Source of the DNA: a virus
Virus record (IMG/VR): IMGVR_UViG_3300042389_000331
Span: 1 to 36,485 of that record
Length of the DNA stretch: 36,485 nucleotides
Reading direction: 5' to 3' (one strand)
Both the position numbers and the translations under genes were made by a program. Below the pieces are notes generated by a model that had not been told where the DNA came from, did no database searches, and saw only the letters and a program-made list of their open reading frames with translations. This document shows, piece by piece, positions 11,728-28,109 of this stretch (the stretch's first letter is position 1; every line of letters starts with the position of its first letter).

Positions 11728-11732
11728 ACGGG

Positions 11733-11767
11733 CACGCCGACAGGCGTGAAAAACGCGCCTGCTTTTT
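11733..11767 (+). terminator. Rho-independent terminator with competing hairpin
   Basis: CAGGCGTG (11741-11748), loop AAAAA, CGCGCCTG (11754-11761), then CTTTTT: an 8-bp GC-rich stem (one G-U) with a U-tract. An alternative hairpin CACGCC-GACA-GGCGTG (11733-11748) uses the same GGCGTG strand, so only one can form at a time. Confidence 0.72.
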
Positions 11768-11835
11768 CCTCGAAAATAAATCTTGCGCAACCAGACCGCT
11801 TCGGTTTCTCTCTTCGACGTAATCAACAACGACCA
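11768..11835 (+). promoter_or_regulatory. Leader B, similar to leader A
   Basis: After the terminator come CGAAAATAAATCTTGC, an AGACCGCTTCGGTTT stretch and AATCAACAACGACCA directly before the ATG at 11836. Order and wording match leader A at 10842-10913. A terminator followed by this element implies a new transcription start for the next gene. Exact promoter boxes are not assigned. Confidence 0.45.
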
Positions 11836-12354: not shown

Positions 12355-12357
12355 CTT

Positions 12358-12501
12358 ATGATCGATCAACCCTCAAAAAATCCCGCCGCAGTCGCGCTCG
12401 GTCGCCTTGGCGGGCGCGTGCGCAGCGCGGCGAAAGCGGAGGCCGCGCGGCTGAATGGACGCAAGGGAGGACGGCCGAAGAAGGCGAAGACCGATGCCTG
12501 A
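12358..12501 (+). CDS. Small basic Gly/Ala-rich protein before terminase
   Basis: 47 residues: NPAAVALGRLGGRVRS, AAKAEAARLNGRKGGRPKK and a short tail. The pattern NPAAVALGRLGG...GRKGGRPKK occurs in short phage and bacterial proteins with two AT-hook-like GRP or GGRP ends, likely binding DNA. It starts 3 bases after the upstream stop and overlaps the terminase start by 8 bp. Too short for the usual gene-length limits but well formed. Confidence 0.65.
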   Translation: MIDQPSKNPAAVALGRLGGRVRSAAKAEAARLNGRKGGRPKKAKTDA

Positions 12502-14278
12502 CGCCGCCGATCTCCTTGCGGACTTGCGTCTGCCTCGGCCGGACCGCGCGCCGATTTACGACTGGGCGCGGCGGCACGTACAGTTGCCAGAGAGCTACGC
12601 GACGCCGGGACCGTTCAATGTGCGGCTGTCGCCTTGGCTCGTTCCGATCTTCGACGCGCTGCAAGACCCGCTTGTGCGGCGCGTGCATTTTCGCAAAGCG
12701 GTTCAGATCGGCGGCACGCTCGTCGCGGACGTGTGGCTCCCGTGGATCATCGCGAACGATCCCGGCCCAATCTCGTGGACGATGCAGACCGACGACATGG
12801 TCGAGCGACACGCGAAGACTCGGCTCTGGCCGCTGCTGGAGCGGTGCCGTCCGGTCGCCGCGATGTTGCCGAAGCCGGGACCGCACCGGACGACGACGGA
12901 GATCTACTTCGGCGGGTTCTTCCTGACGCTCAACGCGGCGAACCTCTCGACGCAGCAGAGCCAGTCGATCCGGTACAAAATCAACGACGAATTGTGGCTG
13001 CCGCGCTGGCAGGAGATTTACGGTCACGCGGTCGCGCGCGTGTCAAAGTTCGAGGAGGTCGGTCGCTCGAAAATATACAATGCGTCGCAGGCTCCTGTCA
13101 TGGACGCGGAGACCGGCAACGTCGAGGATACGAGCTTTCGCAGCGGCGACCAAGGTGAGTGGCACGCCGAATGTCCGGCCTGCCGGAAGCTGCATCCAGT
13201 TGCCTTCGAGCAGATCGTCGAGGGCAATCAGCGGGCGGGCCTCGTTTGGGACCGCTCGGCGAAGCGCGACGACGACACTTGGGACGTTGCGCGTGTCGTC
13301 GAGACGGTGCGGTTTCGCTGTATTAACTGCGGACACGAATCGCCGGACAACGATACGACCCGCGCAAGCTGGGCGAAGACTGGCCGCTTCGTGCCGCAAA
13401 ATCCGAAGGCATCGCGCGAGGTGCGCTCGTTCCGCATCGAGGCGATTGTAAGCCGTCCGATGCGCTTGCTCGCGGAGGAGTGGGCGCATGCGGAGAACGC
13501 ACTCGTGCGAACTGGCGACGAGTCCGCGAAAATCGAGTTTCGCACGAAGCGCGAGGCGCGACCGTGGGTCGTAGAGAAAAAGGTCGTAAATCTGTTTGCG
13601 GCAAAGAGTGGGTATACTGTCTCAACCTATGCGGACGGAGCGCCGATAGAAAACGAACGTCTGCGCGTGATGACAATCGACCGCCAGCTCGATCACTTTT
13701 GGGTCGAGGTCGGCGCGTTTCTCGACGGTCCAATATACCGGCAACTCTGGTTCGGTCGCGTTGAGACGCGCACCATGCTGCGCGAGATTCAGAGCCGCTA
13801 TCGCGTGCCGTCGTTTACGGTCGTTCAGGATCGCGGCTATAAACCTGCGGAGGTTGACCGCGACTGCGTCGAGTTTGGCTGGCGCGGAATGCGCGGCTTC
13901 GCGCGGAAGACGTGGACAATGCGGGACGAGGCCAGCGGCACGCTGCTCAACTATCCGTTCTCCGAGCCGCAGATCAGCGACTACGCTGGCGGCGACGCGC
14001 ATTTCTACAACTGGTCCGGCGACTATTTCAAAGACCTTCTCGCACTCGCACTAGAGGGAAAAGGCGAGTTGAAGTGGGAAATGCCCGACGACGTCAACCC
14101 GTTGTATATTGAGCATCTGAAGGGTGAGGTGAAAACCGAGATCCGTTCCGGCGTCTGGGAGTGGCGCGAGGTTCGCAGCAATGCGCCGAATCACGGCCTC
14201 GACACTTCGGCCATGATGCTTTGCGTAGCGACCATCGCTGGCGTGCTGCGGTACGTGCCCAAACAAGCCGAGGCATGA
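12494..14278 (+). CDS. terL: Terminase large subunit, GpA (lambda) family
   Basis: 594 residues from ATG 12494. Features of the GpA family: an early motif HFRKAVQIGGT (66-75) that resembles lambda's deviant P-loop, where the ATP-contacting Lys sits at the front instead of in GK[ST]; a NDELWLP Walker-B-like segment; a zinc-like pair CPAC and CINCG; the nuclease block MTIDRQLDHFWVEVGAF, TVVQDRGYK, and a final HGLDTSAMM. It pumps DNA into the prohead and cuts it at genome ends. An HNH gene follows by ATGA overlap. Confidence 0.9.
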   Translation: MPDAADLLADLRLPRPDRAPIYDWARRHVQLPESYATPGPFNVRLSPWLVPIFDALQDPLVRRVHFRKAVQIGGTLVADVWLPWIIANDPGPISWTMQTDDMVERHAKTRLWPLLERCRPVAAMLPKPGPHRTTTEIYFGGFFLTLNAANLSTQQSQSIRYKINDELWLPRWQEIYGHAVARVSKFEEVGRSKIYNASQAPVMDAETGNVEDTSFRSGDQGEWHAECPACRKLHPVAFEQIVEGNQRAGLVWDRSAKRDDDTWDVARVVETVRFRCINCGHESPDNDTTRASWAKTGRFVPQNPKASREVRSFRIEAIVSRPMRLLAEEWAHAENALVRTGDESAKIEFRTKREARPWVVEKKVVNLFAAKSGYTVSTYADGAPIENERLRVMTIDRQLDHFWVEVGAFLDGPIYRQLWFGRVETRTMLREIQSRYRVPSFTVVQDRGYKPAEVDRDCVEFGWRGMRGFARKTWTMRDEASGTLLNYPFSEPQISDYAGGDAHFYNWSGDYFKDLLALALEGKGELKWEMPDDVNPLYIEHLKGEVKTEIRSGVWEWREVRSNAPNHGLDTSAMMLCVATIAGVLRYVPKQAEA

Positions 14279-14877
14279 ATCCGAGACGCAAACGCGGAGA
14301 GGTAAGGGAAGACGGGAAAGTTTTCTGGTGCTACAATTACGGAGAAGAATATTGGATCAGCGCCGAGAGGTTCGCTGTTAGAGTTGGAAAGGCACGCGAA
14401 GATGCGCGGCGCTGGAACCGATCAAATCCAGAAAAGCGCACGATTCAGAAGGCTCGGTGGCAAAAGAAGTATGCCGACCGCATGAGCTTATACTTCAAAC
14501 AATGGCGCAACCGCAATCGAGACAAGGTAAGAGAGTTGAATCGCGAATGGCGCGAAAGGAATCAAGAACGTGTCACCGAACTGCAAGCACGCAAAAGAGC
14601 GCGGAAGCGCGATGCCGCTTCAACGGATTCTTGGGTCAAAGCTGTTCGTCAAATATTCGAGATAGCTAGACGCGTCTCAAAGTGCCTGCAAATACCGCAC
14701 GCGGTTGATCATATCTACCCGCTTTCACGCGGAGGCTCGCATTGCCATAGGAATTTGCAGGTGCTCCCTCACTCGTTGAATCAAAGCAAGCACGCAAGGA
14801 CGCACGTTGTTCTGCCATCGTGCTATCGTAACGATGGCTGGTCAATGAATGGACCGGCTTCGCTTGGGCCGAAATAG
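14275..14877 (+). CDS. HNH endonuclease next to terminase
   Basis: 200 residues from ATG 14275 (ATGA overlap). A basic helical middle (KARWQKKYADRMSLYFKQWRNRNRDKVRELNREWRERNQ) is followed by VDHIYPLSRGGSHCHRNLQVLPHSLNQSKH, a clear HNH motif with the LSRGG loop and N...K end. DNA is AT-richer than the flanking terminase and portal genes. It may be a homing endonuclease, or an HNH helper of the terminase as known in HK97-like cos phages. The RNA-binding-like basic helix favours homing; not decided. Confidence 0.82.
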   Translation: MNPRRKRGEVREDGKVFWCYNYGEEYWISAERFAVRVGKAREDARRWNRSNPEKRTIQKARWQKKYADRMSLYFKQWRNRNRDKVRELNREWRERNQERVTELQARKRARKRDAASTDSWVKAVRQIFEIARRVSKCLQIPHAVDHIYPLSRGGSHCHRNLQVLPHSLNQSKHARTHVVLPSCYRNDGWSMNGPASLGPK

Positions 14878-14912
14878 AGTGAAGTGACAAGTTTGACGAT
14901 GTAGCCTAAAAT

Positions 14913-15152
14913 ATGGGCTACGATAATCCGTTCCTAAATCTTGATGCTGGGACTTTAGCCACGCTCAAGACAGAGACGATTGCAGCGATCCGAGCGTGCT
15001 TGCTGAATACAAGCTATTCGCTGAACGGAAAGAGCGTGACCCGCGCTGACCTCGGCCGACTCAACGAGATGCTCGGCCAGATTCAGGCCGCGATTGACGA
15101 TGCCAATGGAGTCACCGACACGGTGACTTTTGTCAGCTTCAACGGCAATTGA
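14913..15152 (+). CDS. gpW-like head-tail joining protein
   Basis: 79 residues. Length, position between large terminase and portal (as in lambda A-W-B), and the pattern LATLKTETIAAIRACLLNTSYSLNGKSVTRADLGRLNEMLGQIQAAIDDA fit the gpW family, which closes the portal after packaging. TTGACG lies 20 bases before the ATG; no clear Shine-Dalgarno. The tail TDTVTFVSFNGN is probably a short strand. Confidence 0.72.
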   Translation: MGYDNPFLNLDAGTLATLKTETIAAIRACLLNTSYSLNGKSVTRADLGRLNEMLGQIQAAIDDANGVTDTVTFVSFNGN

Positions 15153-15159
15153 TACTATC

Positions 15160-17520
15160 ATGGACGCTACGTCTTTCGACTTTCAAAAGGTCATCCAGAA
15201 TCGTCCTTGGTTCGAGCGCGCAATCGAGACTGTCGCGCCTGCCTATGCGCTGAAGCGTCTGGAAGCGCGCATCCAGCGCGAGATGTTTTCGTATAACGCG
15301 GCGATGACGGATCGCCTATACGCTCCGCGCCAATACGGACAGCCGAGCGAATCGACGCAGACGGTGCGCGACCGGATCGTGATGATGTGGGAGGCGCGCG
15401 ACCTCGTGGAGAATTTCCCGCAAGCGCGCGAGATCACGCGCAAGTTCTCGCTCTATTGCACGCCGCAGGAATTCTCGGCGATGACTGGCGACCGCGCGTA
15501 CAATAACATCGTCAACGAATACTTCCACGACTGGTGCAAGCGCGCCGACGTGACCGGGCGGCACTCGTTCCGAAAGCTCGTGCAGATCGGGTGCGAGGAG
15601 CGTCCGGTTGACGGCGATTTCGGTTTTGTCCTTCGTCGTCTCGACAAGGAACTGAAGATCCAGATCGTTCCGGCGACTCGCATCGGAAATCCCAATGCGC
15701 TCACGGCGCAGCCTGCGAATTACTATCAAGGCGTCATCGTCGATGAGTTCGGTCGTCCGGTTGCGTATCAAATATATCGCGTGACGCGGGACGGTGTATA
15801 TTTCGATCCCGAGGAAATTCCGGCGGCGAATTTCTGTCACTTCTTCGATCCGTTCCGCAGCGATCAGTTTCGCGGCGTGTCCGATTTCCACGCCTGCGCG
15901 CGGTCGGCTCGGATGCTGTATGGCATTCTTGAGGCCGAGAAGACCGGCGTGCGCTTCGCTGCGCAGCAGGCGGCACTTGTATTCTCGGACAAGGCGGCGG
16001 CGAATCCGCGCAATCTGTTCACGCCGAATCCGTCGATCCAGTTGCCGAGCGGACAGGCGCAGAAAAACGAATTGTCCGAGATCGGAATGATTCGGTATTT
16101 CGGCACCGCTGATCGCATCGAGGTCATGCCCTCGCGGCCGTCGCAGGCGTTCGCCGGATTCGTGCAACACTTGATGCACGAGATCGCAATCGGCATAGGC
16201 ATCCCGCAAGGCGTTCTGTTCGGCACGCAGGACTTCAAAGGTCCGAGCGTCCGCGCCGAGTTCGCAGCGGCGGATCGCGTGTTCGTGCGGCACCAAGGCG
16301 TCCTCGTGGACAAGGTTCTCGATCCGATTAAGAACGCGGTCATCCTCGACGCCATCGCGCGCGAGGAAATTCCGCCGCCTCCGCTACAGACTGGCGAGAC
16401 GATGGTGCAAGCTATCCGTCGTGCTACGCGCGGCGAATGGCGATTCCCGCCGAAGATCACCATCGATGTTGGCCGCGAGAGCGCGGCGAACATGAACGAG
16501 AACCGGCAAGGCGCGAAGTCATTGCAGGAGATCGCCGCCGAGCAAGGCACCGACGCTTTCGGTCGTCTTGAGCAGATCGCGATGGAGGCGGCATACGTCA
16601 AGGAGCTGGCGCAAAAGTACGAGATTCCCGAAACGGCAATCCGGCTGGTGACCAATTCGCTTCCGAGCACTCCAGCCGCTGCCGCTGCTGCTGGCGATCA
16701 GGTCGCAACGTCTGCCGCGCAAGCGCAACAAGCCGCATCTCCCGGTCAGTCTGTCTCCACCGAGAACATCGCCGAAGGCGCAACACCGGACGCTCCGGTC
16801 GAACAGGTCAACGCCTCGGCCGATCTCATCACGGTCAACTTCGCGGAGGATTCCTATGTTCCGAATGACCGCATGGCCGCGAACGCTCGCCGCGCGCTTG
16901 AAGTTCGCGCCAGTAAGCCGCCGTCTCAGCGCGGCATGACTTCAGTCGGCCTCGCTCGCGCTCGTGATATACAAAACAAGAAGCCGCTCTCAGCCGATAC
17001 TGTGCGCCGGATGAAGGCATATTTCGACCGGCACGAGATCGACAAGCAGGGTTCGACGTGGGACGAGCAGGGCAAAGGCTGGCAGGCGTGGCAGGGTTGG
17101 GGAGGCGACGCTGGGAGAACTTGGGCGAACGCAATCGTCGAGCGGCTCAATAAAGCCGAGCGCAAGGAAGCCGCGTCAACCGAGCAGCAGCGCAGACTCG
17201 AATCCGCAGACGTCGTTGCGATCACGCTCGAACAGCGGCCAGCCGATCCGCACGCATGGCTGAATGCCGTCGAGCAATACCGCAAGGAGCTTTCGGTCAA
17301 GGCAGCGACCGCGACCAATCCGATTATCGACAAGCCGCTCGTGCAATTCGCCGAGCCGAAGAAGTTTGATCTGCCGACGCCATCCGCAGGCGAGACGCAC
17401 GATGACTTCATGGCTCGCTGCATGGCCGATCCTATAGCAACCGCAGAGTTTCCAGATGCCGCGCAACGGAGCGCGGTCTGCATGAAACAGCATGAGGGAA
17501 AACTTCAGAAAAAGAACTGA
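15160..17520 (+). CDS. Portal protein (lambda gpB type) with two extra C-terminal modules
   Basis: 786 residues; ATG 15160 is used because the alternative TTG at 15130 lies inside the gpW-like gene. Residues about 1-480 match the lambda-type portal: WGG-like N-terminus, REITRKFSLYCTP, GDFGFVLRRL, GVIVDEFGRPVAYQIYR, FCHFFDPFRSDQFRGVSDFH, MHEIAIGIGIPQGVLFG. After an Ala/Gln linker come ANARRALEVRASKP...VGLARARDI...VRRMKAYFDRHEIDKQGSTW...WGGDAGRTW (about 570-670) and ETHDDFMARCM...AEFPDAAQRSAVC (about 755-780). Such modules are usually seen with phage head protease or structural genes. It forms the DNA entry ring. Confidence 0.9.
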   Translation: MDATSFDFQKVIQNRPWFERAIETVAPAYALKRLEARIQREMFSYNAAMTDRLYAPRQYGQPSESTQTVRDRIVMMWEARDLVENFPQAREITRKFSLYCTPQEFSAMTGDRAYNNIVNEYFHDWCKRADVTGRHSFRKLVQIGCEERPVDGDFGFVLRRLDKELKIQIVPATRIGNPNALTAQPANYYQGVIVDEFGRPVAYQIYRVTRDGVYFDPEEIPAANFCHFFDPFRSDQFRGVSDFHACARSARMLYGILEAEKTGVRFAAQQAALVFSDKAAANPRNLFTPNPSIQLPSGQAQKNELSEIGMIRYFGTADRIEVMPSRPSQAFAGFVQHLMHEIAIGIGIPQGVLFGTQDFKGPSVRAEFAAADRVFVRHQGVLVDKVLDPIKNAVILDAIAREEIPPPPLQTGETMVQAIRRATRGEWRFPPKITIDVGRESAANMNENRQGAKSLQEIAAEQGTDAFGRLEQIAMEAAYVKELAQKYEIPETAIRLVTNSLPSTPAAAAAAGDQVATSAAQAQQAASPGQSVSTENIAEGATPDAPVEQVNASADLITVNFAEDSYVPNDRMAANARRALEVRASKPPSQRGMTSVGLARARDIQNKKPLSADTVRRMKAYFDRHEIDKQGSTWDEQGKGWQAWQGWGGDAGRTWANAIVERLNKAERKEAASTEQQRRLESADVVAITLEQRPADPHAWLNAVEQYRKELSVKAATATNPIIDKPLVQFAEPKKFDLPTPSAGETHDDFMARCMADPIATAEFPDAAQRSAVCMKQHEGKLQKKN

Positions 17521-17522
17521 CG

Positions 17523-20500
17523 ATGGACACGCTCACTCAAGTCGAACGGCTAATTGAACTAGCTATCATTCAGCGGTCGGAATTGCGCCGACTCGTGGAG
17601 GAGTTGCCGCAACTAAAGACGCATCTCAGCGAGGAGATCGAGCGCACGTTCGAGGAAACGGAACCGCAACTGCGCGCCGAGCTGGAGGAATGGACGACGA
17701 AGCAGACTGCTGACAAGACTGCGGCACTCGGTGCTGCCCTCGAAGCGAAGATCGTGGAGCTTGCAAACAGCCTCGAACGCAGCACGCAGGCGCGATACAA
17801 CGCGATCATCGCCGAGCGCGACGAGAACGCACGCCTTGCGTCTGCGGCAGAGGAGAAGATCGCCGAGCACGCGGCCAGTCTTCCCGGCGCGGTGAAGGAA
17901 ATCGTCACGGCGGAACTGGCTCGCTTTCCGCGCGCTGGTGAAATCGACAAGCTGCGCAAGGAATTCGCGGAACCGAAGACGCTGAATCCGCGCGGCAAGT
18001 GGCGTCCTGATGTTGTCTATAACAAGCTGGATTTCGTCACGATCAACGGCGATTCCTACGTGTCCGCGAAGGACGACAATCGTACGCGACCGACGCGCAG
18101 TTCGTCGGACTGGACTCTCGTCGCCGCGCGAGGAACCGGCGGCGGCGGCGGACCGACCTCGATCACCGACTTTCTGCCGACTCCTTCCGATGGCGAGCTT
18201 CTGATCGGCAACAACGGATCATACTCCGCTGCGCCGCTGACCGCTGGCGTCGGCATCAACATCACGAGCGCGCCGGGATCAATCACCATTGACGCTTCTG
18301 GCGCGCAGGAAACGCTGACCGCAACGATCACGAACGCCGAATCCGTTGCGATCACTCGCGGTCAAGTCGTGTATGCGTTTGGCGCAACCGGCGATCGAAT
18401 GTCCGTCAAGCTGGCGTCGAATCTGAGCGATGCGACGTCCGCGAAAACCATCGGCGTCGTGAGCGATGATTCCATCTCTGCCGGTGGAGTCGGTCAAATC
18501 ACGTGCGTCGGCGTTGTAGACAAGCTGATGCTCGGCAGCTATAACGAAGGCGACACGCTCTATCTCGGCGCAACTGCTGGAGCGTTTACGAATGTTAAGC
18601 CGTATGCTCCAAATCATCTCGTGTATGTTGGCATCGTAGAGCGCGCCAACAACGGAAACGGCGAACTGTATGTTCGTATTCAGAATGGCTACGAACTAGA
18701 CGAGATTCACGACGTACAAATCAACGCGCCTAAGTTGGCCGGTCAGGTCATCGTATATGATGCGACTGATGATCTCTGGAAGAATGCGCGGCTGAATGCT
18801 GGCGCAGGCATCTCGATCACAAACGGCGATGCGTCGATCACGGTTGCTGCAAATGTTGTCAGCGTCTTCGGGAGGACTGGCTCAGTTACCGCATCGAGCG
18901 GCGACTATTCCGCTGGGCAAGTCACGAACACGCCAGCAGGGAGCATCACCGCTACAACGGTGCAGGCGGCGATTGACGAACTCGATTCGGAGAAGCTTGC
19001 GAAAGCATCGAACTTGAGCGATCTCGCGAATGTATCGACGGCGCGAAACAATCTCGGACTCGGCTCGGCTGCGCTGGAAAGTACTACCTACTTCATCCAG
19101 ACGGGCGAAGCCGCAGGAGGCGATCTTACGGGCAACTATCCCAACCCTTCGCTGACGATCAGCGGAGTGATTGCTGGCAATTACGGTTCGGCATCGAGCG
19201 TGCCGTCGATCACGATTGATGCTAAGGGCCGCATCACTTCCGTCACCGCGCCGAACATTCAGATCATCGAGTCGCAGGTCACCGGCCTGACGAGCGCGCT
19301 GGCCGGGAAGATTCCCACGACGGAAAAAGGCGCAGCCAATGGCGTCGCGACGCTCGATGCTGGCGGCAAGGTTCCGACAACGCAGTTGCCCGATTCCGTT
19401 CTCGGTCAGCTTTACTACGAGGGAACATGGGATGCCTCGACGAATACGCCGACGCTCGTCAATCCTCCGAGTGCATCGACTCGCGGTGATTATTACATCA
19501 CGAGCGCGGCTGGCTCATTCGCCAGCATCACCTTCGACGTCGGCGACTGGATTGTGTCCAGCGGCTCCGACTGGCAGAAGGTGGATAATACCGACGCGGT
19601 CGCCTCCGTATTCGGTCGCAATGGGAACATCGTTGCAGCGAGCGGTGACTATACTGCCTCGCAAGTCACGAATGTTCCGGCTGGAGGCATCGTCGCGACG
19701 ACGGTGCAGGCGGCGATTGACGAACTCGATACCGAGAAGCTGGCGAAGGCGAGCAACCTGTCGGATGTATTGTCGGCCTCGACTGCGCGTTTGAATCTTG
19801 GAATCGGCACGATGGGCGTGCAGGACGCGAACAGCGTCGCGATCACGGGCGGCTCGATCAACGGCACGACGGTGGGCGCATCGTCGCCAAATACCGGAGC
19901 CTTCACGAGTCTGTCGAGCAGCAGCACGACGACGCTGAACGGCACGACGATTCCGGCGTCCTCGACTCTGCTCGTCAGCGGCGGCGCTCTCGGCACTCCG
20001 AGCAGCGGCACGGTCACGAACCTCACCGGCACGGCCTCGATCAACATCAACGGCACGGTTGGCGCATCGTCGCCGAGCACGGGCGCGTTCACGACGCTGT
20101 CGGCAAGCACCTCTGTCACGACTCCGAGTCTGACGAATGCAGGGACGCTCGCTCTTTCGGCGACCGGAGCAAATGTTCTGACTGCGTCCACGAACGGCAC
20201 GGAGCGATTCAGGGTTACATCCAGCGGCAACGTCGGCGTCGGTTCCTCAAGTCCAGCAACTCTGTTCGATGTTACTGGTGGATCTAGCACACAAGCCGAT
20301 CCGCCTTCATCTGGCACTACATCTGGCGGCGTAGCTCGTATTCGCTCCTATAACAATTCCCTCGATATAGGGTCGACGGCGGCAAACATTCTATGGATGC
20401 AAGCGGCTAACGCCACAGCCCTTGGCGTAGTTTATCCGATCTCGATCAACCCTGTAGGCGGAAACATTCTTATCGGCACCACCACCGACTCCGCAAACGG

Positions 20501-20720
20501 TCGCCTGCAACTCACCAGCCACACTACCAGCGCAGGCGGTATCGGGTTCGGCGCGGATGTTTCGTTGTATCGGAGTGCTGCTGACGTGCTCGCGCTGGCG
20601 TCCGGTGATGCACTGCAACTCGGCAACGCATACGTTGCAGGCGCGCCAACCGCGACAGGTTACATCACAATCAAAGACTCGACGGGAACGACGTACAAGA
20701 TTCCGGCGGTCGCTGCATAA
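17523..20720 (+). CDS. Large fibre-like protein in the head module
   Basis: 1065 residues. Residues 1-150 are an unbroken charged coiled coil; 157-200 (PRGKWRPDVVYNKLDFVTINGDSYVSAKDD...SDWTLVA) resemble a carbohydrate-binding-like fibre adaptor; then a Gly run and long Ser/Thr/Gly-rich beta repeats. Two 68-residue copies of a VFGR.G...SGDY...QVTN.PAG unit, and two GASSP.TGAF..L units, are typical of tail fibres. No chaperone peptidase domain is visible at the C-terminus. Its place between portal and protease is unusual: it could be a receptor-binding tail fibre or a head fibre attached near capsid or portal. Confidence 0.78.
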   Translation: MDTLTQVERLIELAIIQRSELRRLVEELPQLKTHLSEEIERTFEETEPQLRAELEEWTTKQTADKTAALGAALEAKIVELANSLERSTQARYNAIIAERDENARLASAAEEKIAEHAASLPGAVKEIVTAELARFPRAGEIDKLRKEFAEPKTLNPRGKWRPDVVYNKLDFVTINGDSYVSAKDDNRTRPTRSSSDWTLVAARGTGGGGGPTSITDFLPTPSDGELLIGNNGSYSAAPLTAGVGINITSAPGSITIDASGAQETLTATITNAESVAITRGQVVYAFGATGDRMSVKLASNLSDATSAKTIGVVSDDSISAGGVGQITCVGVVDKLMLGSYNEGDTLYLGATAGAFTNVKPYAPNHLVYVGIVERANNGNGELYVRIQNGYELDEIHDVQINAPKLAGQVIVYDATDDLWKNARLNAGAGISITNGDASITVAANVVSVFGRTGSVTASSGDYSAGQVTNTPAGSITATTVQAAIDELDSEKLAKASNLSDLANVSTARNNLGLGSAALESTTYFIQTGEAAGGDLTGNYPNPSLTISGVIAGNYGSASSVPSITIDAKGRITSVTAPNIQIIESQVTGLTSALAGKIPTTEKGAANGVATLDAGGKVPTTQLPDSVLGQLYYEGTWDASTNTPTLVNPPSASTRGDYYITSAAGSFASITFDVGDWIVSSGSDWQKVDNTDAVASVFGRNGNIVAASGDYTASQVTNVPAGGIVATTVQAAIDELDTEKLAKASNLSDVLSASTARLNLGIGTMGVQDANSVAITGGSINGTTVGASSPNTGAFTSLSSSSTTTLNGTTIPASSTLLVSGGALGTPSSGTVTNLTGTASININGTVGASSPSTGAFTTLSASTSVTTPSLTNAGTLALSATGANVLTASTNGTERFRVTSSGNVGVGSSSPATLFDVTGGSSTQADPPSSGTTSGGVARIRSYNNSLDIGSTAANILWMQAANATALGVVYPISINPVGGNILIGTTTDSANGRLQLTSHTTSAGGIGFGADVSLYRSAADVLALASGDALQLGNAYVAGAPTATGYITIKDSTGTTYKIPAVAA
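18861..19064 (+). repeat. Fibre repeat, copy 1 (68 codons)
   Basis: Starts SVFGRTG and ends NNLGLG. By my count 51 of 68 residues equal those of copy 2 at 19605-19808, with no gap. The two lie 744 bases apart in frame. Confidence 0.85.
19605..19808 (+). repeat. Fibre repeat, copy 2 (68 codons)
   Basis: Starts SVFGRNG and ends LNLGIG. The central part, ATTVQAAIDELD, is identical in both copies, as is EKLAKASNLSD. The VFGR.G motif is widespread in phage fibres, so this may be domain duplication instead of recent DNA copying. Confidence 0.85.
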
Positions 20721-20726
20721 CCTCCC

Positions 20727-20888
20727 ATGACCCAACCCGAAATCACACCAGTTCAAGCTCTCGAAAATCTCGCGCAAGCCGCCGCCCAGTTTCGCGGCAC
20801 CCGCGCCGATCACGAAATCCTCGAACGTTGCGTGCGCGTTCTCGCCGCGCTTGTGCAGCCGCCGCAGATTGAGAAGAAAGCCGAATGA
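20727..20888 (+). CDS. Small hypothetical protein before the holin candidate
   Basis: 53 residues; ATG 20727 six bases after the fibre stop, end overlapping the next ATG by 4 bp. Helical: PVQALENLAQAAAQFRGTRADHEILERCVRVLAALVQPP. No signal or membrane segment. Both ends fit the operon, which is the main support. Function unknown. Confidence 0.62.
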   Translation: MTQPEITPVQALENLAQAAAQFRGTRADHEILERCVRVLAALVQPPQIEKKAE

Positions 20889-21319
20889 GTCTGCTTTCCT
20901 TCCTCGCCTCTGCCGCTGGCGGGACATTGCTCGGCGGCGCAACTCAGTTCCTCGGCTCGCTCGTTGGCGAGGCGAAGGAGTGGAGCGCAAGCAAGCGACG
21001 CATCGCCGAGATCGCCGCGCTGAAGGAAAAGCAGATCGCGGTCGCCGAAGTCGAGGCATTCGCTAAAGCGGTCGAGGGCACGAACAGCACGACATATTCG
21101 CTGCCGCCCAACGCCGCGTCGTGGATGCACGGCTTGATGACCATCGCCGCCTTTTGCACGCAGATGGTGCGACCATGCATGGTGGCTGGCGCGTGCTTGT
21201 ATATATGGACGCGACCGAATGAGGAGCTAGCCGGACTGCATGGCGAGATTCTGACTGTATCCTTCGCGTGCATATATTTCTGGCTCGGCGTCCGCCATCA
21301 ACTTTCCAAGAGCAAATGA
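20885..21319 (+). CDS. Membrane protein, GTA-type three-TM holin candidate
   Basis: 144 residues. A Gly/Ala-rich amphipathic N-terminus (LLSFLASAAGGTLLGGATQFLGSLVGEA), a charged helix (residues 30-60), then two hydrophobic segments: WMHGLMTIAAFCTQMVRPCMVAGACLYIW (about 79-107) and EILTVSFACIYFWLGVRH (about 119-136). The central RP and the final FWLGVR are typical of the holin family first described in gene-transfer agents. It would make membrane lesions that let the endolysin out. It is far from the endolysin-like fragment, so the call rests on topology. Confidence 0.6.
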   Translation: MSLLSFLASAAGGTLLGGATQFLGSLVGEAKEWSASKRRIAEIAALKEKQIAVAEVEAFAKAVEGTNSTTYSLPPNAASWMHGLMTIAAFCTQMVRPCMVAGACLYIWTRPNEELAGLHGEILTVSFACIYFWLGVRHQLSKSK

Positions 21320-21483
21320 ACAGCCCTCGACCAATGGATTTTCTCGTAGCGTCATTGCCTACGGTATCGGCAACAATCATCGCGCAGGCAAATCAGGTCA
21401 TCGGCCTGATCGGATCGCTGCTCGGCATCGCCTATCTGCTCTGGCGGTGGAAGCGCGAGTGGAGCGGAAAAAAGCATGACTGA
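21316..21483 (+). CDS. Small single-pass membrane protein
   Basis: 55 residues from ATG 21316 (ATGA overlap). One hydrophobic span (VSATIIAQANQVIGLIGSLLGIAYLLW, about 18-44) followed by a strongly basic tail RWKREWSGKKHD, so the C-terminus is probably cytoplasmic. Next to a holin candidate it might be an antiholin or helper, but this is inference. The in-frame ATG at 21268 lies in the upstream gene. Confidence 0.65.
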   Translation: MNSPRPMDFLVASLPTVSATIIAQANQVIGLIGSLLGIAYLLWRWKREWSGKKHD

Positions 21484-22426
21484 CTGGAACACCTTACACC
21501 GCGACGAGACGCGGAAGATATACGAGTCGGAGATTGCCGGTCTGAAGAAGGAGCTTCAGGTCGCGAGAACTGCTCTCGATAACGCGACCAAGGCACGCAA
21601 GACGAAGTTGCCTGCGCCCGCCGCAACACGCCGAAGGATCGGCGGCGACATTGTGCGCGTCGTGATTCCCGACACGCATGGATGCCTGATAGACAAGTCC
21701 GCGATCTCGGCGATGCTGTCTGATATAAAGCTACTCGATCCGCAGGAAATTATTCTGCTGGGCGATCACGTAGACTGCGGCGGATTCCTCGCGCAGCATC
21801 ACGTCATGGGCTATGTCGCCGAAACAGACTATACGTACGAGGAAGACCTTGCCGCAGCTAAGACGTTCCTCGATGCGCTCCAAGCAGCAGCACCGAGGGC
21901 AAAAGTCGAATACCTTGAAGGCAATCACGAGAGGCGCGTCGAGACGTGGTGCGTGACACAGGTTCTGCGCCACAAGAAGGACGCCGAAGGCTTGCGACGA
22001 TTGCTTGCACCGGAGTTTCGTCTCGGCCTCAAGGAGCGCGGCATCTCGTATTATCGACAAGGCGAATTCTATGACGAGCTTCCGGTTCCCGGCGTCATCA
22101 AGCGTGGCAAGTGTTTTTTCTTTCACGGTGTTTCAACCGCGAAAAACGCAGTCGGCGCAACGGTGGACAAAATCGGCGGCAACTGTGTATTCGGTCACAC
22201 GCATCGAGCGCAGAGCAATATCGTGCGGCGCATTTCGAGCGGTATCGTCGGCGCGTGGAATCCCGGTTGCCTCTGTCAGCTTCAACCGCTCTGGCAGCAT
22301 ACGGCACCGACTGACTGGTCGCATGGCTATGCAGTGCAGCTCGTGGCTGCGAGCGGAGCATTCCTGCACCTGAATATACCGATCATCGACGGCGAATCGC
22401 ATTTCGCCGCATTGCTCAAGCTATGA
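21476..22426 (+). CDS. Calcineurin-like metallophosphoesterase
   Basis: 316 residues. All family motifs are visible: PDTHGC (Asp66, His68), GDHVDCG (96-102), EGNHERR (148-154), a FFFHG histidine (217) and GHTHR (240-244). These bind two metal ions and cleave phosphoesters. A helical N-terminal 55 residues precede the domain. Substrate unknown: DNA ends, nucleotides or a protein phosphate are all possible. It lies in an unusual place, between membrane proteins and the prohead protease, in an overlapping operon. Confidence 0.85.
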   Translation: MTDWNTLHRDETRKIYESEIAGLKKELQVARTALDNATKARKTKLPAPAATRRRIGGDIVRVVIPDTHGCLIDKSAISAMLSDIKLLDPQEIILLGDHVDCGGFLAQHHVMGYVAETDYTYEEDLAAAKTFLDALQAAAPRAKVEYLEGNHERRVETWCVTQVLRHKKDAEGLRRLLAPEFRLGLKERGISYYRQGEFYDELPVPGVIKRGKCFFFHGVSTAKNAVGATVDKIGGNCVFGHTHRAQSNIVRRISSGIVGAWNPGCLCQLQPLWQHTAPTDWSHGYAVQLVAASGAFLHLNIPIIDGESHFAALLKL

Positions 22427-22677
22427 ACTGGAAACAGCTAGTCGAAGCGCAGAACCGCAAGACATATATACTGCCTCCCGGCTGGGATTCGCGCGACAAA
22501 ATTGCGGAGCAACTCGATTGCAGCGTGGACAACGTGCGCGTGCTTCTTGGTCCTGCATTGCGAGCGAAGACAATCGAGGTCGGACAATTTCCGGTATGGG
22601 ACGATGTAACAAAAAAGGTTGTCCGCATTACTGCTTACAGAAGGCGTCCGACTATAGAGTCGGGAAAGGCAAAGTGA
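22423..22677 (+). CDS. Small winged-helix-like protein
   Basis: 84 residues, ATGA overlap. LPPGWDSRDKIAEQLDCSVDNVRVLLGPALRAKTIEVGQFPVWDDVTKKVVRITAYRRR has the helix-turn-helix plus beta-wing layout (SRDKIAEQL / SVDNVRVLLGPAL / wing), as in small DeoR-like or phage HTH proteins. It may bind DNA or act as an adaptor. No family name assigned. Confidence 0.65.
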   Translation: MNWKQLVEAQNRKTYILPPGWDSRDKIAEQLDCSVDNVRVLLGPALRAKTIEVGQFPVWDDVTKKVVRITAYRRRPTIESGKAK

Positions 22678-22699
22678 TTTGACGAATCCGCATTTTACA

Positions 22700-23638
22700 A
22701 TGGCTGCTCCGACTATTACTTTTGCCGTCTCGTCCGGTCGCGTTGACCGCGAGGCTGGCATCATTCGTGGCGTCTCTCTGATCTCCGAGGGACCGGCACT
22801 AGGTCATGGCGTGCAGATTGATTCCAGAACGCTTGAACAGGTGAAGGAAGCCGCGTCTCAATATGAAGGCGGACTCAAGGTGAAGCTCGATCATTCTGGT
22901 GGTGCCGGTGATATCATCGGCTTCGTCGAGAATCTGCGTATTGAGGGCAGCAAATTACTCGGCGACCTCAACCTGTTGGAGAAGTCGCCGCATCGCGACT
23001 ATGTGCTGGAGATTGCGGAAAAGATTCCAGACACGTTCGGACTCTCTATTGCGTTCTCGGGTCCGACCGAACTAGCGAGCGACAAGCGCACGGTGCTTCA
23101 ACGCTGTTCGGAGATATATTCCGTCGATCTGGTTTCCGAACCTGCGGCGAATCGTGACGGACTGTTCTCGCGTATACTCTCCAAGTTTAACGACGCCAAT
23201 GGCGTCTCAATCGAAATCGAACCCAATGCCGAAATGAACGATGACATGAAACAGGCCATCGAGCAGATGATTCAGTCTGCGATGATGGCTTATGGTGAGC
23301 GTCTCTCGAAGCTCGAGTCGATGCTGCCGAAGGAAGATGAAAAGGAAGTCGCGATGAGCGCGCAGACCGATGCCGTCAAGCTCGCCGCCAACGAAGCCGC
23401 CATCGCTGCGGTGAAGGAGTTCTCGAAGACTATCGGCGCGCCTGCCGCTCCGGTTGTTTCGTCCGAGGCCGCTGCGCCGAAGACCGAGACGAAGACCTTC
23501 GAGGCCGTCGTTGCCGAAAAGACCGCCGAGCTGAAAGGCGACAAGGCGGCGGCGATCACGTTCTGCATCAAGAACAATTCCGAACTTTACGTCGCCTACC
23601 GCTCGCGCGTGCAGGCTGGCGAGAAGATCAAACTCTAA
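22700..23638 (+). CDS. Prohead protease with C-terminal scaffold-like region
   Basis: 312 residues from ATG 22700; a TTG at 22679 is an in-frame alternative. The N-terminal two thirds read GIIRGVSLISEGPALGHGVQID...LKVKLDHSGGAGDIIGFVENLRIEGSKLLGDLNLL...IPDTFGLSIAFSG...YSVDLVSEPAANRDGLFS, the layout of phage capsid-maturation serine proteases (His in LDHSG, Ser in GLSIAF). The last third (KQAIEQMIQSAMMAYGERLSKLESMLP... Ala-rich) is helical and charged like a fused scaffold. It would guide and then digest scaffold during capsid assembly; the capsid gene lies 0.4 kb on. Confidence 0.83.
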   Translation: MAAPTITFAVSSGRVDREAGIIRGVSLISEGPALGHGVQIDSRTLEQVKEAASQYEGGLKVKLDHSGGAGDIIGFVENLRIEGSKLLGDLNLLEKSPHRDYVLEIAEKIPDTFGLSIAFSGPTELASDKRTVLQRCSEIYSVDLVSEPAANRDGLFSRILSKFNDANGVSIEIEPNAEMNDDMKQAIEQMIQSAMMAYGERLSKLESMLPKEDEKEVAMSAQTDAVKLAANEAAIAAVKEFSKTIGAPAAPVVSSEAAAPKTETKTFEAVVAEKTAELKGDKAAAITFCIKNNSELYVAYRSRVQAGEKIKL

Positions 23639-23650
23639 AACCAACTCAAC

Positions 23651-24001
23651 ATGGCCACCAACTATATCGGCACGGGAACCCTCCTTGCCAACACTACCAT
23701 CACCGCCTTCTACGGCGTTGTGCTTTCCAGCAATCGCGGCGTCGGGCTTTCCAGCGCGACCAACTGTGATGGCTTCGCGCAGATCGACGCGGCTTCTGGT
23801 GACTACGTCACGGTCGCGTTCCTGACCAACTTCGGCACGCAGAAGGGTGTTGTCACCGCTGCTCCGGTGACGGTCGGTGACACGCTGTATCTCGGCGCGT
23901 CCGGCCTCGTTTCCACGACCGGGACGATCACCATCGGCAAGTCGCTCACGACGACTTCCAGCAACGGTGCCGTCATCGAGTTCGTTCCTAAGAATCTCTA
24001 A
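23651..24001 (+). CDS. Capsid decoration protein (DUF2190-like)
   Basis: 116 residues, ATG 23651 after ACTCAAC. All-beta composition; the segment VTAAPVTVGDTLYLGASGLVSTTGTITIGKSLTTTSSNGAVIEFVP matches the repeated pattern of DUF2190 capsid cement proteins (AV..G..LY....G..T......IG.AL......G..V.V). Position directly before the major capsid gene supports it. It would bind outside the expanded capsid and stabilise it. Confidence 0.75.
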   Translation: MATNYIGTGTLLANTTITAFYGVVLSSNRGVGLSSATNCDGFAQIDAASGDYVTVAFLTNFGTQKGVVTAAPVTVGDTLYLGASGLVSTTGTITIGKSLTTTSSNGAVIEFVPKNL

Positions 24002-24024
24002 CAATTAACTAAAGGACTTCTACC

Positions 24025-24990
24025 ATGTATACGAATGCAGCCGCAGTCTTTCGCGGCGATATCGCTGGTGTGCTTGAGCAGGCTAAAGACTGGGAATCCG
24101 GTCTGGTTGCCACTCGCGTGATGCCTGTTCTTCCTGTGCCGGTTCGCGCCGGTCAGTATCCTTCGTTTCTCTTGAAGGAGGGCCAGCTCCTGAAGAACGA
24201 AATCAAGCAGCGTGCGCCGAACTCCGCGTATCCTCGCGCGACGCAGGCCTATAATCAAGAGACCTATATCGCGCAGGAATACGGCGTGGAAATGGGCGTT
24301 GACGATACCGTTGCGCTCGATGTTTCGCGCTTCTTCGACGCTGAAGTCGTCGCCGCCAAGCTCGCGCAGCGGAAGCTCCTGCTCGGTCACGAAATCCGCG
24401 TCGCTGGGAAACTCTTCGATTCCGGCACGTTCACCAGCACGAACTCCGGCACGGCCTACACGACGGGCAATCTCGCCTCGTTCGACGTTGGTGCCGACGT
24501 GCAGGAAGCGATTGATCGCCTGCTCGCGAAGGGTGAGAGCGTCAGCAATCTGCGCGTTGTCATGAGCGCGCCGGTCTGGACTCGCATCCGCGCCAGCACG
24601 AAATTCCAGAACCGCCTTCGCGGTGCCGGTCTTTCGAGCGACACGATCCTCAACGCGAGCACGCAGGCCGCTGCCGAAGTCTTCGGCGTCGCCGAGGTGC
24701 TCATCGGTCGCGCCAGCTACGACACCGCGCCGGAAGGCGTGGCGTTCTCCAGCTCGCAGGTCTGGTCGAACACGTACATTTGGGTCGGCAATGTCACCGA
24801 GGCCTCTTCCGGCTTCTTCGGTGGCGGCGCGGGCTTCACGCTCAACTGGAGCGAGTACGGTCCTGCGGTCGGCGTGTTCACCTATCGCGACGAGAGCGTG
24901 AAGTCGAACATCGTTCGCGCTTCGCAGTTCGTCGCCGAGAAGGTTGTGAACAGCAACGCGGGTCAGCTCATCGCGACGCAGTACTCCTAA
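24025..24990 (+). CDS. Major capsid protein
   Basis: 321 residues, ATG 24025 with AAAGGA 7-12 bases upstream. Opening MYTNAAAVFRGDIAGVLEQAKDWESGLVATRVMPVLPV, then ATQAYNQETYIAQEYGVEMGVDDTVALDVSRFFDAEVVAAKLAQRKLLLGHEIRVA and a late VWSNTYIWVGNV...FTLNWSEYGP...VKSNIVRASQF fit HK97-fold major capsid proteins of the kind in lambda-like siphophages. Location after protease and decoration genes and before a strong terminator (high expression) agrees. It forms the icosahedral shell. Confidence 0.88.
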   Translation: MYTNAAAVFRGDIAGVLEQAKDWESGLVATRVMPVLPVPVRAGQYPSFLLKEGQLLKNEIKQRAPNSAYPRATQAYNQETYIAQEYGVEMGVDDTVALDVSRFFDAEVVAAKLAQRKLLLGHEIRVAGKLFDSGTFTSTNSGTAYTTGNLASFDVGADVQEAIDRLLAKGESVSNLRVVMSAPVWTRIRASTKFQNRLRGAGLSSDTILNASTQAAAEVFGVAEVLIGRASYDTAPEGVAFSSSQVWSNTYIWVGNVTEASSGFFGGGAGFTLNWSEYGPAVGVFTYRDESVKSNIVRASQFVAEKVVNSNAGQLIATQYS

Positions 24991-25013
24991 GCTCTTTTTT
25001 AGGGTTCATGGGG

Positions 25014-25063: not shown

Positions 25064-26764
25064 ATGCGCTTTTCGCTTTGCGTGATATGCGGCAACGAGT
25101 CGCACCACATAGGCCAGATGCTCGCAGCATTTGCTCCTGCGTTCGACGAGCTTTCGCTCGTGCGCGCAATCGGCAAGCGTGTGCCTGACGCGACAAAGGA
25201 GATCGCCGAGGAGTGGTGCCGGTCGAACGGCAAGGCGTTTGTTTTCTCCGAGTATATCAACGAGCCGACCGCACGCGATTGGGATCACGTCGATTCATTC
25301 GCTCGCGCTCGCAATGCTGCATTCAAGCAGGCCAAAGGCGAATGGCTTTTCTGGGCCGACTGCGACGACGTGGTGCGCGGTGCCGAGAATCTACGCCGGA
25401 CGCTGGAGCAAGTCCCGGCAGACGTGCACATGGTGCGCTTTTCCTATGACGTCAAAGGATCGAACAAGTGCTTGTTCCGCGAGCGAGCAATTCGCCGAGA
25501 CGCTTTCCACTCAGGTCGAGTCTGGCATCACGACGTACACGAGAACCTGCTGATTCTCGCTGGCGACAAGCATCTCGATCTCGGCGACGTTGTCTGGGTT
25601 CACGCACCAAAAGAAATCAAGCAGGAGAACCGGAGGCGCAATCTCCGCATCCTCGCAAACTCGGTTCGCGAATGCGCGACGCAGTATTTTTACATTCATC
25701 AGGAGCACTACTGTAACCAGAACCGCGAAGCCGCGCTGGAGTTTGGTCGTCTCGCGTTGCAGTTCCCGAACCTTCAACCGGCGTTCCGATACGAGGCGTT
25801 GCTGAATTGCGCTCGTCTGACTAATTCCAGCCGCGAAGCGAAGTCTCTTTTGCTCGAAGCGCACGGCGTTTTCCCGTGGTGCCGAGAGGCATTCGCCGGT
25901 CTTGTGCTGCACGCCTTCGAGCAGAAGGACTATTCAATGGCTGTATACTGGGCGCAGCGCATGACGGAATTGCGCGAGCCATTGAGCGACAAGCGACCGT
26001 GGACGCACGAAGCGAAGTGGTACGGCTGGGCCGGATACGATCTTGCCGCTCGCGCATTCCGAGCCGAAGGAAACAAGGCGATGGCGGCGGTTCTTCAGGC
26101 TCAATACTATCTCGGCAAGACTCCGAAGATTTCGCTTTTGCACGCAACGCGAGGTCGATCTTCAATGGCGGTTTCAACTCGGGATATGTGGCTGAATGCG
26201 GCCAGCGATCCGACGCGCGTTGAGCATATCTTCGCGGTCGATGAGGACGATGCAATCAGCGTCGAGATGGCGAAGCAGTTTATCTCCGTCACTTCGTCGG
26301 ACAAGTCGTGCGTCGCCGCGTGGAATCTTGCTGCGGCATCTGCTCGCGGAGAAATCTTCGTCCAGCTCTCGGACGATTGGGTGCCATGCTCCGGATGGGA
26401 CGAGAAGCTGCTCGATCTCGTGAGGGATCGCGACGCTCACTCCGAGCCATTCGTGATCGCGCCTAGCGATGGAAGCCGGAAGGACGACTTGCTTTGCATG
26501 GCGATCTTGTCGCGTGCGCGTTACGAGCAGCAAGGGCACCTGTTCTTTCCTGAGTATGAGTCTGTATTCAGTGACAACGAATTCTCTCACCGAGCATGGC
26601 GCGACGGCATCGTGATCGACGCGAGAGATCGCCTGCGCTTCGATCACCGGCATCCGGCTTTCGGCAAGGCGAACATGGACAAGACATATTCGCATACGAA
26701 TTCCCGCGAGCGATACGTGCGCGGCGAGGCGCTCTTCAAGTCACGCAACCCAGACGCGAAATGA
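25064..26764 (+). CDS. Double glycosyltransferase (GT2 - helical repeats - GT2)
   Basis: 566 residues. Residues 1-200 form a GT-A family 2 domain: FSLCVICGNESHHIGQML, DEL..VRAIGKRVPDATKEIAEEW, SFARARNAAFKQAKGEWLFWADCDD with the DxD at 99-101, and WHHDVHENLL. Residues about 205-345 are helical with TPR-like pairs (EAALEFGRLALQFPNLQPAFRYEALLNCAR). Residues about 355-560 are a second GT-A-like domain (ISLLHATRGRSSMA, IFAVDEDD, AAWNLAAASARGEIFVQLSDDWVP). It would add sugars to a capsid, tail or host glycan. TTGACG and GCAGG precede the ATG. Confidence 0.85.
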   Translation: MRFSLCVICGNESHHIGQMLAAFAPAFDELSLVRAIGKRVPDATKEIAEEWCRSNGKAFVFSEYINEPTARDWDHVDSFARARNAAFKQAKGEWLFWADCDDVVRGAENLRRTLEQVPADVHMVRFSYDVKGSNKCLFRERAIRRDAFHSGRVWHHDVHENLLILAGDKHLDLGDVVWVHAPKEIKQENRRRNLRILANSVRECATQYFYIHQEHYCNQNREAALEFGRLALQFPNLQPAFRYEALLNCARLTNSSREAKSLLLEAHGVFPWCREAFAGLVLHAFEQKDYSMAVYWAQRMTELREPLSDKRPWTHEAKWYGWAGYDLAARAFRAEGNKAMAAVLQAQYYLGKTPKISLLHATRGRSSMAVSTRDMWLNAASDPTRVEHIFAVDEDDAISVEMAKQFISVTSSDKSCVAAWNLAAASARGEIFVQLSDDWVPCSGWDEKLLDLVRDRDAHSEPFVIAPSDGSRKDDLLCMAILSRARYEQQGHLFFPEYESVFSDNEFSHRAWRDGIVIDARDRLRFDHRHPAFGKANMDKTYSHTNSRERYVRGEALFKSRNPDAK

Positions 26765-27399
26765 ACGTTCCCGAGCATTATCAAATCGACGCGAAGACAG
26801 GCGCGCTCCGGTCGAGGGATCGTCGCGTGACTGCGGTTTACGATCACGCCTACGTAGCACGATATGAAAACTATCCACAGCGTGAATTGTCGGCGATCAG
26901 AGCGAAGCTAGTGCATCGCTTTTCCGAATTTGCGATCAATGTTTGCGACGTAGGCTGCGGCACAGGTGCTTTCCTCGAAGAGATGAAACGCACGCAGCCG
27001 GGAATCGTTTGCTGCGGTCACGACGTTTCTCCTTATCCGCTTCCGTCTTTCATCAATCGAGTCGGCGCAGACTGGCACGAGTTGCAATGGGACACGGTAA
27101 CGTTCTTCGACAGTCTTGAGCACTTCGATTCGCTCGACTTCGTTGAGCATCTGCGCGCTCGTGCGGTGATCGTATCGCTGCCGTGGTATCATCCTTACAT
27201 GGGAGCGGAATGGTTCGCTCGATGGAAACATCGCAGGCCGGGAGAACATCTCTGGCATTTCACGCCGGATAGTCTGGCGCGGCTTTTCGCGCAGGCTGGA
27301 TTTCATCCGGTATACGTCGGCAATCCAGAGGATGAAGTTCGCAAGCCAGATGCCGATTCCTGCGCTCCAAACATTCTGACGATGGCATTTCGCCGATGA
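26761..27399 (+). CDS. SAM-dependent methyltransferase
   Basis: 212 residues from ATG 26761 (ATGA overlap). Motif I VCDVGCGTGAFLEEM (61-75), an acidic GHDVSPY end of strand 2 (86-92), and motif IV TFFDSLEHF (114-122) are class I methyltransferase signatures of the Methyltransf_23 type often found in glycan-synthesis clusters. The end reads WHFTPDSLARLFAQAGFHPVYVG, typical for this group. Substrate probably a sugar or glycan made by the flanking transferases; a small-molecule or protein target is not excluded. Confidence 0.87.
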   Translation: MNVPEHYQIDAKTGALRSRDRRVTAVYDHAYVARYENYPQRELSAIRAKLVHRFSEFAINVCDVGCGTGAFLEEMKRTQPGIVCCGHDVSPYPLPSFINRVGADWHELQWDTVTFFDSLEHFDSLDFVEHLRARAVIVSLPWYHPYMGAEWFARWKHRRPGEHLWHFTPDSLARLFAQAGFHPVYVGNPEDEVRKPDADSCAPNILTMAFRR

Positions 27400-28109
27400 A
27401 AATCTGTCTCGTATACAGCCAGCGACTCGGAGACATCATCCGCATCCTGCCGATTGCGCGTCATCTCGCTGCTCAAGGTCACGAGGTCTACATCGAGTGC
27501 TTGCCTCAATATGTCGGAGTTTTCGGTGCCGTTTCCTACGTGCGACCGTCGCTCAGGGAATTGCGTGAATCGGAAGGCTTCGGCAGAGTCATCGACCTCG
27601 AAATCTGGCCGCATCGCTATGACGAGTTCAGACGCAGCGGGAAATCGTGGGAGGATTTCGTGTTCGGAATTCATTCTGAGTTCTCGAACATCCATCGCAA
27701 ACCGCACTTCGATTTGATCGACGAAAACGACGGCCTCGAAAGCTACGGATTTTCCCGCGAGGTATGCATTTTTTCTCCATTCGGCTACTCTCAGGCGAGG
27801 CACTATAGGTTCTCCGATCTGCTCGCCGAATGCCGCAGGCTCGCTTCCAAGCCAATCGTAACGCTTGCCGATCCGGCGCAGGCAAAGCATCTCATCGAAA
27901 TTGGTTTTCCGAAAAACGAAATCCTGCGCGCTCGATCTCAGGCAGACTTGCCGCGCCTGCTGCGTGATGCTGCGGAGGTCTTCACGATAAATTCCGCGCC
28001 ATGCATCATCGCTGGTGCCGTCCGTCCTTGGTTCTGGCACGTTCTCTCCGGTTGCGCGCAGGATGATCACTACAGCGCAGCGTCGCGCGTTGTGACAATC
28101 GGCACTTAG
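27396..28109 (+). CDS. GT9-like (heptosyltransferase-type) glycosyltransferase
   Basis: 237 residues, ATGA overlap. The opening MKICLVYSQRLGDIIRILPIARHLAAQGHEVYIECLP equals the GT-B start of family 9 enzymes (RLGDxxxxxPxxxxL). Late FSPFGYSQARHYRFSDLLAEC, KPIVTLADPAQAKHLIEIG and LPRLLRDAAEVFTINSAPCIIAGAVRPWFW give the donor half with the xTINSAPxxIA site. It is shorter than the usual 320-350 residues, so one domain is trimmed. Target may be LPS core or virion glycan. The next gene starts 2 bases after its stop. Confidence 0.75.
   Translation: MKICLVYSQRLGDIIRILPIARHLAAQGHEVYIECLPQYVGVFGAVSYVRPSLRELRESEGFGRVIDLEIWPHRYDEFRRSGKSWEDFVFGIHSEFSNIHRKPHFDLIDENDGLESYGFSREVCIFSPFGYSQARHYRFSDLLAECRRLASKPIVTLADPAQAKHLIEIGFPKNEILRARSQADLPRLLRDAAEVFTINSAPCIIAGAVRPWFWHVLSGCAQDDHYSAASRVVTIGT

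Follow-up and report, generated by a model that had tools for sequence, protein, structure and literature searches.

The virus record IMGVR_UViG_3300042389_000331 (IMG/VR), analysed here as a window of 36,485 bases (the whole stretch of DNA under study), carries a block of genes headed by a large fibre gene between the genes for the portal and the head maturation protease. Comparison with relatives showed that this fibre block is, as far as the fetched part shows, the usual gene order of a broad uncultivated clade. Portal and protease were found apart in all 56 distinct relative contigs that spanned both genes, with a block of 2740-8709 bp (median 5302) between them, and the window fibre matched a protein in the block of every one of these contigs by direct blastp. 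In the window, 5158 bp separate the portal stop at 17520 from the protease start at 22679; the interval holds six plus-strand open reading frames (ORFs), and the immediate portal-protease adjacency of lambda-like phages is absent.

We consider it likely that the block is an adsorption cassette, combined with a slot for lysis-type membrane proteins and with optional cargo, that was fixed in the ancestor of the clade. According to this explanation, the common ancestor of a large clade of uncultivated tailed phages would already have had the block between these two genes. The N-terminal part of the fibre is presumed to anchor the protein to the virion, and the tip, which is replaced between near-identical phages, would help to set host range. 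Behind the fibre would lie a membrane-protein slot whose occupant is probably a holin, followed by variable cargo such as a phosphoesterase, a sulfotransferase, an RCC1 propeller or a fibre chaperone. The packing of the genes on the same strand and their short overlaps suggest that the block would be produced together with the late structural genes.

Gene order among the relatives

Relatives were collected from IMG/VR with the portal, for which the best 80 of at least 597 confirmed relatives were kept, and with the protease, for which the first scan gave 58 and a profile scan the best 80 of 231. A locus was counted as spanning when each of the two genes gave a match at E < 1e-20 inside the sequence fetched; by this definition blocks longer than the flank are missed, and adjacent genes are not. 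The 62 spanning loci represented 56 contigs, since L084, L085, L088, L090, L169 and L180 were second slices of contigs already counted and were dropped. L001, L143 and the named records L140-L142 were omitted from the spanning counts, and near-identical contigs from different samples were retained. All counts out of 57 refer to the 56 relative contigs plus the window. ORFs were clustered by single linkage, and short ORFs came from a greedy tiling that may drop small genes, so that the counts given for s84, c2 and m2 (see table) are lower bounds.

The match to the fibre began within its first 200 residues in 56 of the 57 loci, the self-match of the window included. Single-linkage grouping of the 57 proteases gave 41 groups at 99% identity, 22 at 95% and 6 at 80%, which shows that the relatives are not one strain sampled repeatedly.

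The pairwise distances of portal and protease were closely correlated (Mantel r 0.88). For the first 225 residues of the fibre the correlation was 0.65 with the portal and 0.69 with the protease, and none of 2000 permutations gave a value as high; the Mantel tests used 47, 48, 56 and 37 sequences with long enough matches. The N-terminal part of the fibre thus appears to have mostly travelled with the head genes. The G+C content of the block (0.586) was level with that of the portal (0.602) and of the region from the protease to the major capsid protein (MCP) gene (0.585). Two observations weigh against the proposed explanation. The portal-fibre correlation is lower than the portal-protease one, which points to some exchange of the fibre, and in 7 of the 57 blocks another ORF lies ahead of the fibre.

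An initial annotation of this DNA had described a block of about 5.2 kb between portal and protease and had judged it settled, not fresh. Its coordinates were right, the block recurs throughout the spanning relatives, and both the distances of the fibre N-terminus and the G+C content agree with an old arrangement. The same annotation had called the gene set uncommon, which does not hold for the gene order in these relatives. The gene-order comparison it had proposed revealed many relatives with this order, which is largely the outcome that was to count against it; the relatives are uncultivated contigs, however, and no named genus was found for them.

A MAG (metagenome-assembled genome) contig with a more distant portal (35% identity; L144:9989-14298) differs in that the next product is a 764-aa protein with repeated short motifs and not a recognised protease. 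This protein also contains a stretch that we take to be P-loop-like.

The fibre and its tip

Identity of the fibre was scored in blocks of 75 residues against two relatives, L018 and L002, with portals 98% and 99% identical to that of the window. Over residues 1-825, identity per block was 81-100% with L018 and 92-98% with L002. Over residues 826-1050 the values were 54, 32 and 49% for L018, with 86% in the last 15 residues, and 50, 12 and 0% for L002, whose fibre ORF has a different tip at its end. Beyond the stop codon of the L002 fibre (L002:9970-10196), 42 residues of the window-type tip were found in another frame, 83% identical. This remnant suggests a trace of tip replacement; it could instead be the product of an assembly or frameshift error, which would count against that interpretation.

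The fibre, whose length of 1065 residues had been given correctly in the initial annotation, has therefore a conserved N-terminal part and a tip that is exchangeable after about residue 825. Receptor-binding fibres typically combine a shaft that is conserved with a tip that is replaced. In a PDB sequence search, residues 492-529 matched the short tail fibre gp92 of 9zd7. Cluster c12 occurred in 7 of the 57 blocks, and the one member of it that was scanned contained the tail assembly chaperone domain PF16778.

Two results weigh against the proposed role of the fibre. Its N-terminus had no match in the phage collection, and the genome encodes a rival receptor binder, a tail-tip protein (33376-35943) that matched phrog_31 (central tail fibre J) with E 1.6e-51 and also phrog_5616 (tail fibre). 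Given this J-like protein, the block fibre need not be the only receptor binder, and it could serve as a side fibre or as an additional receptor binder. As judged from sequence, the fibre most likely takes part in setting host range alongside the J-like tail-tip protein, through a presumed binding to the receptor.

The J-like protein is 855 aa long in the window (open frame of 870), and 13 of the 14 other matching records have open frames of 1052 to 1334 aa; the middle or the end of this protein thus varies too.

Membrane proteins, cargo and neighbouring genes

The slot of m1, the first of the two small hydrophobic proteins of the block, was occupied in 51 of the 57 contigs, by the family of the window protein (c1) in 38 and by another cluster (c4) in 13. 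The single c4 member that was scanned (L158, same slot as m1) matched GTA_holin_3TM (PF11351) with 40.7 bits, above the cut-off of 24.8. The second protein, m2, has a single hydrophobic stretch over the threshold of 1.5, and a longer GTG frame for it begins at 21268.

Several results weigh against a holin function of m1 itself. Its three hydrophobic stretches are moderate, with peaks of 1.45, 1.44 and 1.38, none of them at the threshold. The window protein had no Pfam match, GTA_holin_3TM included, and one of 22 c1 members reached that family, only at E 0.026. Alignment of c1 with c4 gave an HHalign probability of 65%, and the predicted structure of m1 was poor (predicted local distance difference test score, pLDDT, 45). 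In addition, no endolysin was recognised by Pfam or PHROGs among the window proteins scanned, which were a part of its ORFs; the usual partner is thus missing among them, and this weakens a lysis reading. The terms lysis-type and holin used in the initial annotation are therefore an interpretation that is partly supported, for the slot by its c4 member and not for m1 of the window. It is plausible that m1 is a putative holin, holin-like by slot and architecture and not a member of the family.

The phosphoesterase named in that annotation was identified as such, with a PF00149 score of 28.9 bits (cut-off 21.5), whereas its place as a part of the block is not a fixed one: its cluster (c6) was present in 12 of the 57 contigs, window included. 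A PDB sequence search with it found nothing. Among 18 longer records, five had the window-type phosphoesterase in the block, four had a distant type elsewhere, either just after the tail-tip gene or after a small gene behind it, nine had neither and none had both. Presence was counted by protein queries, since the PF00149 family search flagged 5 of the 18 records yet missed the gene of the window and is not exhaustive. The phosphoesterase is, then, an optional gene that may occupy one of two sites. Identity between the window type and the four tail-end proteins was 22.6-29.0%, each group being at least 58% identical internally. On this low identity the simple movement of one gene between two sites was rejected, and the two types were probably acquired separately. 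In several relatives s84 was found by tblastn to travel with the phosphoesterase.

Other cargo of the block comprised a sulfotransferase cluster (6 of 57), an RCC1 cluster (5 of 57) and a cluster with a LamG match below threshold (5 of 57), each named from one scanned member. A sulfotransferase-domain protein (L060:15220-17025) and a 742-aa RCC1-repeat protein (L124:5098-7326) are unusual cargo for a phage.

The genes of the region are listed in the table.

Table. Genes from the portal to the major capsid protein in the window, with the evidence for each.
Feature	Position	Strand	Evidence
Portal, lambda family, C-terminal extension (phrog_2859 domain, residues 571-682)	15130..17520	+	PF05136 E 8.3e-40; phrog_21, phrog_2859
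Fibre, 1065 aa	17523..20720	+	phrog_13892, phrog_31460 (tail proteins); gp92 of 9zd7
53-aa ORF, cluster c2	20727..20888	+	cluster in 24/57 contigs, window included
m1, 144 aa, holin-like by architecture and slot	20885..21319	+	hydropathy; family c1 in 38/57 contigs
m2, 55 aa, hydrophobic stretch at residues 21-39	21316..21483	+	peak 1.63; cluster c3 in 22/57 contigs
Calcineurin-like metallophosphoesterase, 316 aa	21476..22426	+	PF00149 28.9 bits; phrog_221 E 2.3e-20
84-aa ORF (s84)	22423..22677	+	tblastn in relatives; cluster c15 in at least 6/57 contigs
Head maturation protease, predicted T4 gp21/assemblin-like fold	22679..23638	+	VIA Z 10.6 to 5jbl; weak PHROGs
Cement/decoration protein	23651..24001	+	PF09956 29.9 bits, cut-off 24
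Major capsid protein (MCP)	24025..24990	+	phrog_1005 E 4.1e-32

The block genes had been described as all overlapping, which is slightly overstated: overlaps of 4, 4, 8 and 4 bases occur at the junctions c2/m1, m1/m2, m2/phosphoesterase and phosphoesterase/s84, and gaps of 2, 6 and 1 bases at portal/fibre, fibre/c2 and s84/protease. The 53-aa ORF, which completes the six, had not been mentioned in the initial annotation. The portal belongs to the lambda family (PF05136, 137.5 bits, cut-off 32.9).

The lambda gpC protease is ClpP-like. The predicted fold of the window protease aligned in VIA with T4 gp21 (5jbl) over 130 residues, with Z 10.6 and a root mean square deviation of 3.8, herpesvirus proteases coming next in the ranking with Z 6.4 and below. 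VIA-align only re-ranks Foldseek matches, and gp21 was clearly first there; Foldseek itself placed 5jbl fourth (E 0.012, probability 0.99), behind Mce proteins of very poor fit. The mean pLDDT of the model was 61.6 and was higher over the fold. PHROG matches were weak, with phrog_976 at E 6.6e-4 and phrog_15531 at best at E 1.7e-7, in 2 of 16 relatives; individual relatives also matched portal and tail-fibre PHROGs, and these matches were set aside as weak. A PDB sequence search with the protease found nothing. H72 and S123 were invariant in 16 of 16 protease sequences and may be catalytic. On its modelled fold, the protease is predicted to be T4 gp21/assemblin-like and not of the ClpP type.

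The left part of the window contains replication and recombination genes; the large terminase begins at 12455, the portal at 15130, and capsid and tail genes follow. Between the terminase and a small connector gene lies an HNH/endonuclease VII-like gene (14161-14877; phrog_1035 E 7e-10, Pfam HNH below the cut-off), which few relatives match at the same place. A further group of non-structural genes interrupts the head operon between MCP and the tail connectors (25064-28109); this second block encodes a family 2 glycosyltransferase, a methyltransferase and an unassigned 237-aa protein and is common, with variation, to many of the mapped relatives; its genes could serve the modification of virion glycans or proteins. 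Homologues of the last (35946-36485) and first (1-195) genes of the window are 69 and 53 bases apart in L205 and L212, and in L206 and L208 they are more widely spaced, with other ORFs between them. From these distances, the window probably represents a circularly permuted genome that is almost complete, with at least a few hundred bases missing.

Known phages and competing explanations

No near DNA match to positions 10001-25000 of the window and no match to its MCP were found in the phage collection; its 64 portal matches were all distant. Thirteen named records with distantly related portals, hand-picked and not a random sample, were compared (ten of the 64 matches plus P8625, CRP-406 and CRP-811); one of them, Dulem virus 34, is of faecal origin and perhaps uncultured. 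In all 13 the portal was immediately followed by a protease gene, by a gene for a capsid or protease-capsid protein or, in a single case, by an unannotated gene of similar size, and the window differs from this background. Several of these neighbours are annotated as capsid only and one not at all, and to call them protease or protease-capsid fusion rests on length. No named phage with the portal-fibre-protease order was found, nor, among open-licence titles and abstract openings, an account of a fibre in this position.

The roseophages CRP-406 and CRP-811, of the CRP-822 type (PMC12629253), gave the top portal matches by coverage times identity (29.8 and 31.3%), others having better E-values. 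The window also showed weak matches to their tail terminator, major tail and tape measure proteins. These phages differ from the window in having a capsid-annotated gene directly after the portal, and their fibre and lysins after the tail genes. The family is defined by shared core genes that include capsid, portal, helicase and TerL; portal and TerL of the window match weakly, and its MCP has no match in the phage collection. The phrog_2859 domain of the window portal (16840-17175) occurs near the start of the capsid-annotated protein of CRP-406 and CRP-811, and this domain has thus changed partners.

Verrucomicrobia phage P8625 (NC_029047) resembles the window in having fibre genes, two small hydrophobic proteins and a phosphoesterase (25% identical to that of the window) consecutively. 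In P8625, however, the set sits after the tail genes, the hydrophobic pair is in reverse order with other ORFs interspersed, and the portal adjoins a Clp-like protease. Homology of P8625 gp28 to m1 was unsupported (HHalign probability 3%), the likeness being architectural. Synechococcus phages S-CBS1 and S-CBS3 also encode a receptor-binding protein, annotated as major tropism determinant, close behind the capsid gene; in them, portal and capsid genes remain adjacent.

The interval might be a generic insertion hotspot, in which the fibre is one tenant among many and no adsorption or lysis theme exists. The wide variation of the cargo (phosphoesterase in 12, sulfotransferase in 6, RCC1 and LamG-like proteins in 5 contigs each) would agree with this, as would 'Gratiaviridae', whose five described members all carry additional genes between portal and MCP, for a HipA-like kinase, an AAA ATPase and a glycosyltransferase and not for a fibre (PMC8008677). 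We regard a hotspot as unlikely, since the fibre is present in 57 of 57 contigs and the membrane slot filled in 51: variation is confined to the genes outside this fixed core.

Alternatively, the fibre could be a head or neck fibre, mounted on capsid or collar, made with portal and protease and providing the first, reversible contact with the host. Its gene stands among head genes in every contig, the tail module already has a receptor binder in the J-like central tail fibre, and capsid fibres that contact the host are described for phage 7-7-1 (PMC12796354). The database matches of the fibre are tail proteins, however, a tail assembly chaperone domain occurs in the cluster found in 7 of the 57 blocks, and gene position alone does not settle position in the virion. 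Side tail fibres beside a J protein are, moreover, common in tailed phages. We find a head or neck position doubtful. A more specific proposal, in which the whole clade would carry a second fibre for host range, mounted on the head or neck and not at the tail tip and incorporated along with the connector through the position of its gene next to the portal, and in which the slot behind it would be a docking site for exchangeable cargo, seems to us rather improbable. Finally, a recent insertion or an assembly chimera in the window contig alone, for which nothing speaks beyond the unusual order itself, was rejected as highly improbable: the order is common to the 56 relatives, the 22 protease groups at 95% identity include the window, block and flanks co-vary, and their G+C contents are level.

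The adsorption cassette with its membrane-protein slot and optional cargo is therefore preferred as the explanation of the block. The arrangement, which is genuine and long established in this group, departs modestly from known phage genome plans. It indicates that a portal next to a protease is not a safe anchor rule for the annotation of phage head operons. Of real interest is the mounting, on the tail or near the head, of a fibre whose gene adjoins the portal when the genome already encodes a J-like tail tip. The portal-protease interval is the address of a probable host-range gene in a widespread group of which this analysis found no cultured member, and the same interval may guide the collection of fibre tips and lysis-type genes from metagenomic data. 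Fixed position, co-inheritance of the N-terminal part and replacement of the tip make the evolution of the fibre traceable in this clade.

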